A stretch of DNA of 28,742 nt, taken from a virus. The stretch covers positions 1 through 28,742 of IMG/VR virus record IMGVR_UViG_3300038436_000008, one strand, 5' to 3'. The translations under genes were made by a program, and so were the position numbers. Under the pieces are notes generated by a model. The model had not been told where the DNA came from, ran no database searches, and was given only the letters and a program-made list of their open reading frames with translations. Shown here in pieces: positions 12,417-28,742 of the stretch (its first letter is position 1; every line of letters begins with the position of its first letter).

Positions 12417-13076
12417 ATGCCAAAACGAATCGATCTAACCGGGCAACGTTATGGACGACTGACGGTGATAAAAGAAGCTGATCAAAATGGATATACCCGA
12501 CGATGGCTATGCCGGTGCGATTGTGGCAACGAAATGACAGTAACGATGTATAACCTACGTACCGGACACACTGTCTCATGCGGCTGCGTGCAAAAAGAAC
12601 GCGCCAGCCAAAACAACACAGATGACCTAACCGGATCTGTTTTTGGCCGCCTGAAAGTTTTGCGGAGATCTGATACAAAGCCCTATAAGTCGCGCCACGT
12701 TTTTTGGGAGTGCCAGTGTGATTGCGGCAATACAACGATAGCTGACGGCGTGCGTTTAAAGGACGGTACGACGCAATCTTGCGGCTGCTTGCGAACAGAT
12801 AAAGGTGTTGGGTTGCAAGAGTATAACAACGCAAATCTATATATTGACGGTGTGTTTACGCCGATCCTCAAAAGTAAGCTGCGAACAGATAGCTCAACCG
12901 GCGTTAAAGGCGTATCACGTAAACGCAAAAAAAGCGGTGCAATCGCTTATAGATCCAGTATCCGTATAAAAGGTAAAACCTATTATCTAGGCGAATACGC
13001 AACGATCGAAGAAGCCGCTGCCGCACGTAAACGCGGCGAAAAAAAGTACCACAAACCATACTTGGAGAGTGATTGA
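12417..13076 (+). CDS. Zinc-finger/AP2-type DNA-binding protein
   Basis: 219 aa from ATG at 12417, two bases after the previous stop. Contains two related modules: DLTGQRYGRLTVI with CRCDCGN and SCGC (residues 6-57), then DLTGSVFGRLKVL with CQCDCGN and SCGC (70-124). Each is a Cys4 unit of the sort seen in phage HNH and AP2 proteins. A C-terminal AP2 domain (about 160-212) has TGVKGVS, YRSSIRIKGKTYYLGEY and EEAAAARKRGEKKYH. No HNH catalytic motif is seen, so it is a DNA-binding protein rather than a clear nuclease. Such genes often spread as homing-like elements. Confidence 0.75.
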   Translation: MPKRIDLTGQRYGRLTVIKEADQNGYTRRWLCRCDCGNEMTVTMYNLRTGHTVSCGCVQKERASQNNTDDLTGSVFGRLKVLRRSDTKPYKSRHVFWECQCDCGNTTIADGVRLKDGTTQSCGCLRTDKGVGLQEYNNANLYIDGVFTPILKSKLRTDSSTGVKGVSRKRKKSGAIAYRSSIRIKGKTYYLGEYATIEEAAAARKRGEKKYHKPYLESD

Positions 13077-14606: not shown

Positions 14607-14624
14607 ATACTCACCTTCTTATGG
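14603..14624 (-). repeat. Direct repeat copy 2 (22 bp, one mismatch to 15074-15095)
   Basis: Matches 15074-15095 in 21 of 22 bases. It carries the stop of the Mom-like gene and the ribosome site and start of the 30-aa gene. Confidence 0.8.
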
Positions 14625-15077
14625 TGTTCTCGCCCATCTCCACTTTCCTGAGATGTCGATGTTCTTTCTATTTTCTCTATCCTTTCCACTCCACTTCCCG
14701 CCGTCTGTCTTTCCAATTCGAAACCAGTTGTCAGCTGCGTAAATTGTTCCCTCGTGGCCTTGCCCGGTACTAGAATACGCAAGTAATCCCTTTACTTCTG
14801 GATAGTGCTTTCGAATGTGTTTTCGGGACATCGCCAGTGCTTTACTCTCTGCATATGGCTCCGTATCGTCAACAAAAAACATTCTTGTGAGTTCTAATAT
14901 TCCATTTTGGTCATAATGCCTTGATGTAGGTCTACCCCACATCATAGCGCCGATCCGTTCGCCGTGATCGTCAAGTACCCATAATCTTACCTTTGCTCCA
15001 GCTGGCGTCGACCGCAGATAATGTCGTTCTGCAATCCATACATCTAATTCCGTACTACGGCATACCTCAAGTCGCAT
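14619..15077 (-). CDS. GNAT-fold protein resembling phage Mu Mom (DNA adenine modification)
   Basis: 152 aa, ATG after AAGAAGGTGAGGAT. Pattern ILELTRMFFVDD (60-71), AYAESKA-like helix start (YAESKALAMSRKHIRKHYP), and YSSTGQGHEGTIYAADNWFRIG (101-122) match phage GNAT proteins of the Mom group, where the QGHxGTIYxAxNW box is a family signature. Mu Mom converts adenine in DNA to a carbamoylmethylated form and blocks restriction. Activity here is inferred from family likeness. The gene is bracketed by 22-bp repeats of its own start region, which suggests it is a mobile accessory. Confidence 0.65.
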   Translation of the reverse strand: MRLEVCRSTELDVWIAERHYLRSTPAGAKVRLWVLDDHGERIGAMMWGRPTSRHYDQNGILELTRMFFVDDTEPYAESKALAMSRKHIRKHYPEVKGLLAYSSTGQGHEGTIYAADNWFRIGKTDGGKWSGKDRENRKNIDISGKWRWARTP

Positions 15078-15190: not shown

Positions 15191-15218
15191 CAAAAAGAAA
15201 GTCTCTCAGGCGAGAGAC
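15191..15218 (-). terminator. Intrinsic-terminator-like hairpin upstream of late genes
   Basis: GTCTCTC-GCCT-GAGAGAC (15218-15201) followed on the minus strand by TTTCTTTTTG. Alternative pairing of AAGTCT with AGACTT would disrupt it. It would stop early transcripts, or late ones unless antitermination occurs. Confidence 0.6.
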
Positions 15219-15473
15219 ATAAGACTTACGTATAGAGAGGGGGTGCTGACTTATCGCCAGCGTTTGGGTTCCGACAATGCCATTAACCTAGGCGATTTTG
15301 TCGTTTTGGCATTTTTGATAGCGTTTCGTCCGGCTAATCCGCCAAAGCCTACTACCTCCGCTAGTCAGAAACCCAACGCCGGATACAAACCAGCATGCGT
15401 TCGAAAAGGATACGTGCTCATTTTCCGTCCTAGGGGAGGTCGGGCGGCTATCGTCTAACCGCCCCATGTTACA

Positions 15474-15482
15474 AGAATAGCA
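15474..15482 (-). promoter_or_regulatory. Candidate extended -10 of the late promoter
   Basis: TGCTATTCT on the minus strand. No good -35 stands at normal distance; the last 11-bp repeat lies there instead, as expected for an activator-dependent promoter. Confidence 0.4.
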
Positions 15483-15500
15483 CGGAATTTTTTCCAATTG

Positions 15501-15544
15501 GTCTACTTTATGTCTCTTTTTTGTCGCTAATTTGTCTATTCCAT
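15501..15544. repeat. Four 11-bp phased repeats, likely activator site
   Basis: Plus-strand units GTCTACTTTAT, GTCTCTTTTTT, GTCGCTAATTT and GTCTATTCCAT begin at 15501, 15512, 15523 and 15534. Period 11 puts each on the same face of the helix. The fourth overlaps the stop of the regulator gene. Suggested binding site of the ArpU/RinA-like protein. Confidence 0.6.
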
Positions 15545-16168
15545 TCCCGATAGATTTGCGTACTCATTTATTGCCGCTTTTCTCCACTTGTCAAATGTGC
15601 TTCTATGGATGTTTAATTCTCTGCTCACAATGTCAACCGGCTTATCCTCTATATACCGATACACTAACAGGTTACGATAGTGCGGCTTGTACTCTACCAT
15701 TGTGTTGAGTACCGAATCTATCATGTCTTTCTCTTGTTGCAAGTCTTGTAACTCCGACACTCTTCTTAACGCCGCTTCAAACTCATCCAGTGCCCCGTGC
15801 CTGGTGTCCATTACCTTGCGAATCTTGCTTGCCAGTTCCTTGATGAGTTTCCGATCCTCATCGTCCACCCCGCGGATCTGCTTCACGGTGTAGTGTTGAC
15901 TCTTAATACCTGCCGGATGTCGAGTGAGGTACGCATTCGCAACGCTCTCCAGTTTTTGTTCGCGCTTGGTGAGATACATATAACTCGGCAATCCCCTCAG
16001 TTGCCGGTGGAGAGCTTGCAGTTTGTCATCCTCATTGTATGGCTCAGTTAGGTGCATTCCGTTTCCAAGGGGGTACTTTTCAAGAATCTTGATACGCCCG
16101 ACGATAGTATTGTAACTACGTAGTTGCTCAATGACTCGTTGCTCTACTGTACTCTCCGCTAACAACAC
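15536..16168 (-). CDS. ArpU/RinA-like phage late-gene transcriptional regulator
   Basis: 210 aa from GTG at 16168, nine bases after GGGAGG. A long helical N-terminal half is followed by a C-terminal sigma-region-4-like helix-turn-helix (YRYIEDKPVDIVSRELNIHR then STFDKWRKAAINEYA, about 167-203). Proteins of this kind (ArpU, RinA, LtrC) end the early block of Firmicutes phages and activate the packaging and structural operon. The position just before the repeats and leader at 15501-15098 agrees. Family placement is by layout and HTH only. Confidence 0.7.
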   Translation of the reverse strand: MLLAESTVEQRVIEQLRSYNTIVGRIKILEKYPLGNGMHLTEPYNEDDKLQALHRQLRGLPSYMYLTKREQKLESVANAYLTRHPAGIKSQHYTVKQIRGVDDEDRKLIKELASKIRKVMDTRHGALDEFEAALRRVSELQDLQQEKDMIDSVLNTMVEYKPHYRNLLVYRYIEDKPVDIVSRELNIHRSTFDKWRKAAINEYANLSGME

Positions 16169-21897: not shown

Positions 21898-22644
21898 TTA
21901 GACCACCTCACCGGAAATAGGGAAATATTGCTCAAGGAATGGATCTCTCTTCCCTGTGTCTGTTTTTTGCTGCGGGTGATGTCGCTCCCACATATCAGGT
22001 ATGACTTTGGCAAAAAACTTGAAACTATTCACCTTTTTCCCCACGGCTGCTTCTTTCATGGCTTGTAGGATGAAGTCTAACGGAATTTCTGAATTAGCGA
22101 GTTTTCTTGCTTCCTCTCGTTCTACTCCGTTCATGTATTGTTCTTGTCTGCCTGAGATTTCGGTATAGACGTCTAGGATTTGTACAAGAGGTTCGCGCGC
22201 GTCATTATTATGTTTTTGTTTATGTTTAAATAATGTGCCCCTCTCGTTGTCCCTCGTGTGCTCCTCTCGTTGCCCTTCTTGTTGTCCCTCCTGTTGCCCC
22301 TCTCGTTGTCCTTTTTGAACAATCGGGAAATTTATTATTGAATATTTCCCAGCTTCATTCGGACGATTTGATTTTTTGTAAGTAATCCTATCTAGCACAA
22401 TCAATGTCTGTCTTGCTTTTTCAAACTCTTTCCTGCTTAACCCGGCTCTGATCTGAAGCAATCCGTTTGGAACTGTAAATTCCTGCTTCCATCCAGTCTT
22501 ATTACAAACAGCCATCAATTCGTACCATAATGCAATTGCACTGGCAGGGAGCTGGTTTACATCCTTCCATTCGTGAAACGCCAAGATCTGCTGAAGGTAA
22601 TTCACACACTCACCAACTTTCTTACTGGTGATACTTCGATTCAC
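21898..22644 (-). CDS. Replisome organiser / DnaD-like initiator
   Basis: 248 aa from GTG at 22644 after GAGAGG. N-terminal winged-helix region WKDVNQLPASAIALWYEL and GWKQEFTVPNGLLQIRAGLS (about 27-73), a Gln/Glu linker built of GQxE repeats (about 109-125), and a C-terminal helical DnaD-like domain (SEIPLDFILQAMKEA, then NSFKFFAKVIPDMWERH). Such proteins bind the origin and load DnaB. The DNA for the linker forms 12-bp iterons, suggesting the origin lies within the gene. Confidence 0.78.
   Translation of the reverse strand: MNRSITSKKVGECVNYLQQILAFHEWKDVNQLPASAIALWYELMAVCNKTGWKQEFTVPNGLLQIRAGLSRKEFEKARQTLIVLDRITYKKSNRPNEAGKYSIINFPIVQKGQREGQQEGQQEGQREEHTRDNERGTLFKHKQKHNNDAREPLVQILDVYTEISGRQEQYMNGVEREEARKLANSEIPLDFILQAMKEAAVGKKVNSFKFFAKVIPDMWERHHPQQKTDTGKRDPFLEQYFPISGEVV
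22200..22316. other. Candidate replication origin: iterons and AT-rich tract
   Basis: GTTG-headed units start at 22269, 22281, 22293 and 22305 (exact 12-bp spacing), with a fifth at 22246. Beside them 22201-22237 is AT-rich with A-T runs. An initiator gene carrying iterons plus a melting region is the lambda O layout. Confidence 0.5.
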
Positions 22645-28353: not shown

Positions 28354-28742
28354 ACTGTTTCCTCCCCCACTGGTTGTTTACTTTCCGCCGTCACATCTTT
28401 GAAAAAGCGAATCGCCGCATCATATTGCTTCCGATACTTACCGTCTGGATAGACCAGTTCGACACGCTCTTTAAACTGATTAAGAGTGCCCTTCCAACAA
28501 CCACAGAATATTGTGTCTGTGTCTACGTGATAGACGGTTTTGCTGTTTCTGCTTCCAATGTTGTCGACGGAAAGGAATGTTTGCCCATAGATTCGTGTTG
28601 TATGGGCACCGCTCAGGTCGGCACCGCCCAGGTTGGCATCGCCCAGGTTGGCACCGCTCAGGTTGGCATAGCTCAGGTTGGCATAGCTCAGGTTGGCATC
28701 GCGCAGGTCGGCACCGCTCAGGTTGGCATCGCGCAGGTCGGC
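28350..28742 (-). CDS. Pentapeptide-repeat protein (N-terminus outside window)
   Basis: 130 codons visible. The first 45 residues are nine A(D/N)LXX units (28742-28608), forming a right-handed quadrilateral beta-helix. The remainder is a non-repeat domain with [17 protein letters not shown] and [13 protein letters not shown]. In bacteria such repeats include DNA-mimic gyrase inhibitors (Qnr, MfpA), but many phage members end in this kind of conserved tail and have no known activity. The DNA repeats are nearly identical, suggesting recent expansion. Confidence 0.8.

Follow-up and report, generated by a model that had tools for sequence, protein, structure and literature searches.

The window analyzed here, the whole 28,742-nucleotide stretch (a viral record of 28.7 kb), carries its late genes on the minus strand. 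Read in that direction, replication genes lie above ~19 kb (20-24 kb), followed by the gene for a 210-aa regulator and then by the late genes, all on the same strand. From 15077 downwards the late genes encode a Mom-like protein, a phosphoesterase, TerS, TerL and a P22-type portal. An array of four 11-bp repeats lies at the end of the regulator gene, and between it and the late operon are an extended -10 element, a second -10-like hexamer and a structured leader (Table 1). Other repeats occur elsewhere in the window. Tandem repeats of 15/30/45 bp, 84-87% alike, cover 28605-28742 and reach past the contig end, and a 12-bp repeat (TGCCCCTCTTGT) occurs in ~6 copies at 22236-22308, within the ORF at 21898-22644.

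Table 1. Features of the regulator gene, the repeat array, the predicted promoter and the late leader. Positions are those of the window; negative and positive offsets are relative to the predicted transcription start.
Feature	Position	Strand	Basis
210-aa Ltr-kind (RinA/ArpU-like) late regulator; N-terminal helical part and C-terminal sigma-4-like HTH	15536-16168	-	phrog_248, phrog_36, RinA profile match, AF2 model
Unit 1, ATAGACAAATT; GAC at ~-69, overlapping the regulator stop codon	15529-15539	-	sequence and shuffle test
Unit 2, AGCGACAAAAA; GAC at ~-58	15518-15528	-	sequence and shuffle test
Unit 3, AGAGACATAAA; GAC at ~-47	15507-15517	-	sequence and shuffle test
Unit 4, GTAGACCAATT; GAC at ~-36 (usual -35 place)	15496-15506	-	sequence; register fixed in 85 loci
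Extended -10, TGCTATTCT	15474-15482	-	sequence; aligned to CCGTGnTAnnAT of 85 loci
Second -10-like hexamer, TAACAT; 8 bp past the first, ~-4 to +2	15466-15471	-	window sequence; TAnnnT in relatives
5' hairpin of the predicted late leader RNA; from ~+4, 9-bp stem, without U-tract	15442-15464	-	RNA folding
Intrinsic-terminator-like hairpin with U-tract; ~+250 to +275 of the late leader	15193-15218	-	terminator prediction
Mom-like DNA-modification protein, first late gene	14619-15077	-	PF25680 (E=3.4e-20), phrog_1384 (E=8.5e-35)

On the plus strand the array appears as four GTC triplets, which start at 15501, 15512, 15523 and 15534. The exact 11-bp spacing claimed in the original prediction was borne out: the pattern GTC N8 GTC N8 GTC N8 GTC has a single occurrence in the window (15501-15536) and was absent from all 100 dinucleotide shuffles of it. 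A period of 11 was also called by Tandem Repeats Finder, at 15507-15537. When the window was considered alone and any lag was allowed to win, the 11-bp signal reached only p ~0.03 in a shuffle test, and hence its strength comes from the relatives described below together with the exact GTC pattern. The same prediction held that this phase would place every GTC on one face of the helix, which is true only roughly, as an 11-bp step drifts by ~17 degrees per unit on DNA of 10.5 bp per turn.

Given that the minus strand encodes both the 210-aa protein and the late products, the functional reading of the array is that of the minus strand, where each GTC becomes GAC. The order is then ATAGACAAATT AGCGACAAAAA AGAGACATAAA GTAGACCAATT (15539 down to 15496), GGAAAAAATTCCG, and the extended -10 TGCTATTCT (15482 down to 15474). 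The TAG stop codon of the regulator and the first GAC have one G in common. An extended -10 without a usual -35 had been proposed, and indeed no TTGACA-like -35 precedes this element and promoter prediction returned no sigma-70 promoter there. With transcription predicted to start near 15467, the last GAC would fall at ~-36 and so take the place of the missing -35.

The regulator itself matches phrog_248 (E=3.6e-10) and phrog_36 (E=1e-9). Compared with the RinA alignment by hhalign, it gave a probability of 93.7% (E=1.8e-7) over the HTH only, and by this profile evidence the HTH is homologous to RinA. Scores against the curated NCBIfam models are below the cut-offs (17.1 versus 31.9 bits for TIGR01636, RinA; 15.0 versus 43.1 for TIGR01637, ArpU), and the nearest database relatives are proteins of Paenibacillus phages with 48-54% identity. 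An AlphaFold model built with 60 relatives had a pLDDT of 83 (~98 in the HTH); a model from the single sequence reached 42 and was discarded. The recognition helix runs from about residue 189, and residues 188-194, with the motif HRSTFDK, begin the last helix of the sigma-4-like HTH in the model. At 210 aa and a pI of 8.6, the protein is basic and longer than a typical Ltr (about 130-140 aa, basic), with the caveat that Alt and the phi13 Ltr, at 6.3 and 6.7 by the same measure, are not basic.

Related phages were searched for the 11-bp spacing, using a sample of 100 distinct loci (the window and 99 relatives). These were collected by scanning viral contigs and 394 genomes with a profile, which matched in 87 of the genomes; the genomes represent the host family of the P. 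baekrokdamisoli prophage. Within 125 bp around the stop codon, self-identity relative to shuffles peaked at lags 11 (z 21.8), 22 (z 13.5) and 33 (z 7.0). Smaller excesses were seen at lags 8, 9 and 10 (z 4.0-6.7, with 6.7 for lag 10 and 6.0 for lag 8), and control DNA farther downstream in the 100 loci gave no comparable lag peak. The spacing is therefore conserved, with lag 11 dominant. In phages Bob and LincolnB, five GAGAC units stand straight 3' of the regulator stop codon; Pd_22F has five TGTCGCAT units and the P. baekrokdamisoli prophage has TGTCGTAA units in the same place. The units of all four are exactly 11 bp apart, and the -10 that follows each array is CCGTGTTATTATG or similar.

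Arrays mostly contain 3-5 units, and a clear array is missing in some relatives (e.g. L053, L102 and L108). ArpU-type loci (L139-L153), for which a simple reading gave no clear common promoter picture, were left out. To look at register, we aligned 85 loci by the TG that begins their extended -10. Lag-11 identity was greatest in three blocks, -24 to -19, -35 to -30 and -46 to -41 from the TG. These fixed distances from the -10 indicate that array and promoter keep a constant register to each other.

The sequence of the repeat core varies among phages (TGTCGC, TGTCCG, TGGCGG, GCGAA, GAGAC, GGGAA and others), and particular cores go with particular recognition helices. GIVDRTFRR is found with TGTCCG, KIVRRTFER (VRRTF) with TGTCGC, NISKDVFYR (SKDVF) with GCGAA, QVSRRTYER (RRTYER) with TGGCGG, and ARSVYYR with GGGAA. 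We quantified this co-variation in 60 representatives of <80% protein identity, allowing for overall protein similarity. The top seven-residue window of the whole protein was 188-194, with a partial correlation with core similarity of 0.43 (median -0.02), and a Mantel permutation of helix versus core gave p<=0.0005. The depth of the alignment, phylogeny and the register chosen are possible sources of error here. The pattern is indirect evidence that the C-terminal part of the regulator sets repeat specificity, and we regard it as the strongest evidence, footprinting aside, that the regulator reads the array. It also yields ~60 independent combinations of a recognition helix with its 11-bp site, readable almost as a code, which could be used to predict or re-target late promoters of laboratory phages. 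As a separate observation, the same core, TGTCGCAT, occurs in the arrays of Pd_22F (L002, Paenibacillus) and PLE2 (L374, Lactobacillus casei), the regulators of which belong to different families.

Because the core co-varies with the recognition helix of the 210-aa protein, the array is very probably a late-promoter operator read by this adjacent regulator, which would switch on the late operon. We envision that the C-terminal sigma-4-like HTH of one protomer occupies each 11-bp unit, with protomers arranged head to tail and about one helical turn between neighbours. The last protomer would then sit where region 4 of sigma would touch a -35 element, and the bound protomers would put RNA polymerase on the extended -10, turning on the Mom-like gene, phosphoesterase, TerS, TerL, portal and onwards. 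The original proposal of a multimeric site for the neighbouring ArpU/RinA-like protein at a late promoter thus gains from both the conserved spacing and the co-variation.

Other functions for the array can be imagined. Since pac/cos regions and replication origins commonly feature short direct repeats as well, the units near the packaging genes might instead be a site for packaging by TerS, or replication iterons. We consider this very improbable, as the register relative to the -10 is fixed in 85 loci, the core follows the regulator helix, and terS is ~4 kb away in the window. There is a similarly slight probability that the array is an autorepression site of the regulator gene, whose own stop codon it touches, or a chance repeat. 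It lies after the gene, not before it, and is followed by a conserved extended -10, both of which argue against autorepression, while a chance or coding repeat is ruled out by the shuffles (0/100) and by conservation in relatives.

Two further elements accompany the array and bear on how the late promoter might work. One is the second -10-like hexamer. TAnnnT is found exactly 8 bp past the -10 in 90% of the 60 representatives, compared to a background of 1.3%, and the full extended form, TGnTAnnnT, is present at 8 bp in 87%. The paired hexamers read TATTCT TG TAACAT in the window, TATACT TG TATTAT in TP901-1 and TATTAT GA TAGTGT in phi11. The other element is a terminator in the leader. Among the 85 loci, 68 have a terminator-like hairpin <=190 nt from the start (48 of the 60 representatives), versus 20/255 shuffles and 27/425 windows (6%) drawn at random from these loci. 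In the 85 loci they mostly end at +40 to +60, and a terminator between the stop codon and the -10 was seen in only one. Leader terminators are present in phi11, phiNM1, IPLA88, PLE2 and phi13 as well, and in only 10/25 Alt-type leaders. No mention of the second hexamer or the leader terminator was found in the literature searchable here.

In the window, the non-coding leader between the late promoter and the Mom-like gene (15193-15467, minus strand) is structured (-94.8 kcal/mol, z -2.5) and contains no tRNA and no known RNA family. Leaders of other loci show features of their own. L004, L017 and L377 share the same long-loop hairpin (GGCTATGCT..GGGTGTACG) though their regulators are only distantly related, and this hairpin may be a mobile leader module. 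Alt-type late leaders (L007, L154-L231) have tRNA-like sequences soon after the promoter.

Together, the double -10 and the promoter-proximal terminator pose a concrete, testable question, namely whether the regulator acts by recruitment alone or also by Q-like antitermination. The former, which we judge somewhat probable, would make it an ordinary class-II type activator, with the leader hairpins ending the early operon or stabilizing RNA, and the paired hexamers offering a choice of start sites. RinA, Alt and Ltr have been published as transcription activators (PMC13123087; PMC9867676), and the last unit lies at the missing -35, both in line with recruitment. However, the exact 8-bp placement of the second hexamer and its near-invariant T, A and T are needless for plain recruitment. 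Moreover, the terminators stand downstream of the promoter, as in Q-type systems, and hence lie in the path of any polymerase that starts there; left unchecked, they would cut late transcription too.

Antitermination on top of recruitment would account for these features differently. Protein bound to the array would be passed to polymerase held at the second hexamer, which would then no longer stop at the promoter-proximal terminator, as with Q21 and AlpA. The site of Q21 consists of two direct repeats, and the protein makes use of a -10-like pause element and overcomes a terminator farther on (PMC6606751); AlpA likewise uses a -10-like element and passes a terminator (PMC9371919). The elements of those promoters, a site for an HTH protein beside the promoter, a -10-like element near the start and an intrinsic terminator downstream, have putative counterparts in the window, and the site of Q21 is also one of direct repeats. 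The near-constant hexamer, the clustered ends of the leader terminators and the presence of such terminators in phi11, phiNM1, IPLA88, PLE2 and phi13 fit this reading. So does structure comparison, in which Q21, as part of its loading complex, gave the best VIA match to the regulator model (Z 8.5 over 92 residues), albeit tied with many sigma-4 domains at 8.0. AlpA structures were absent from the VIA matches listed, to which we attach no weight. Weak matches to Pfam Phage_antitermQ (PF06530) were obtained for 13/60 family members (best E 1e-4), with none listed for the window protein. In combination, the second hexamer, the leader terminator and the Q21/sigma-4-like fold of the model suggest that the regulator may act by loading and antitermination of the lambda Q kind.

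Q-like action is thus a serious possibility, but in our estimation the less likely one, and several observations speak against it. Sequence homology of the regulator to the Q homologue QuuD is not convincing (hhalign probability 4.5%, HTH only), and none beyond the HTH links it convincingly to Q21. The Q21 subsites and the AlpA site lie between -35 and -10, whereas the window array is upstream, at -72 to -34. The second hexamer starts at ~-4, whereas the lambda element lies within the transcript, and the terminator of the window is distant, at ~+250. Leader terminators, irregular among Alt-type phages, might simply end the early operon. Finally, known Ltr proteins have been described as initiation activators, and our literature search found no case of antitermination by any Ltr. 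A broader version of the idea, to which we give slightly less credence still, is that the Ltr (RinA-type) proteins of phages from Gram-positive hosts act, entirely or in part, as antiterminators loaded at the promoter in the manner of Q21 and AlpA, such that the 11-bp array loads the protein, the second hexamer holds polymerase and the terminator found ~50 nt past most of these promoters is ignored. If true, the 'late activator' would be a long-unrecognised Gram-positive counterpart of lambda Q.

Comparison with known late promoters places the window among the Ltr systems. In the sequence of TP901-1 (Lactococcus), for which we take position 13073 to be the start site, the best four-copy period is 11. 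There, as in the window, the regulator gene is directly upstream and the late operon downstream, and four 11-bp direct repeats are followed by a -10, with the second hexamer 8 bp on. Four imperfect repeats are the general binding site of Ltr proteins, and for Alt these have been described as direct repeats that span -76 to -32 (PMC13123087). Alt differs in being 140 aa long and of another family (PHROG 2198, DUF722), with the repeat core GGCACGAAA, and in Alt-type leaders the promoter-proximal terminator is less regular, often with a tRNA-like stretch instead.

The RinA promoter of phi11/80alpha (Staphylococcus; TIGR01636) is similar in other respects, with a homologous HTH and a leader terminator. 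Two units 11 bp apart are found in the promoters of phi11 RinA, phiNM1, IPLA88, PLE2 and Vegas. Those of phi11, TGGCAGTAAAG and TGGCAG, are at the same distance from the -10 (TATTAT) as in the window family, and TATTATGATAGTGT resembles the Paenibacillus relatives. Unlike the window, phi11 has two units only, and its RinA, at 140 aa, lacks the extended N-terminal region that the window protein has. The array had been thought to represent a design unlike described sites; this view is not upheld, since TP901-1 Alt has four repeats and RinA-type promoters have the 11-bp spacing at a similar place.

The P23 promoter of phi13, controlled by an Ltr of PHROG 1058, also has repeats where the regulator gene ends and a terminator-like hairpin past the promoter, and its repeat region is required for activity (PMC13123087). 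Its protein family is unrelated to that of the window, and its period is 9 bp (an 18-bp double unit) rather than 11. Loci of the phi13 type (L234-L291) show a 9-bp period (TCGAACACA or similar) at or just past the end of the regulator gene. These 9-bp units rule out 11 bp as a universal Ltr rule, and so this spacing is common, not universal. Judged from sequence, the window array and its regulator are a new example of the Ltr (RinA/ArpU/Alt-type) late promoters, with an array that is itself ordinary within its class.
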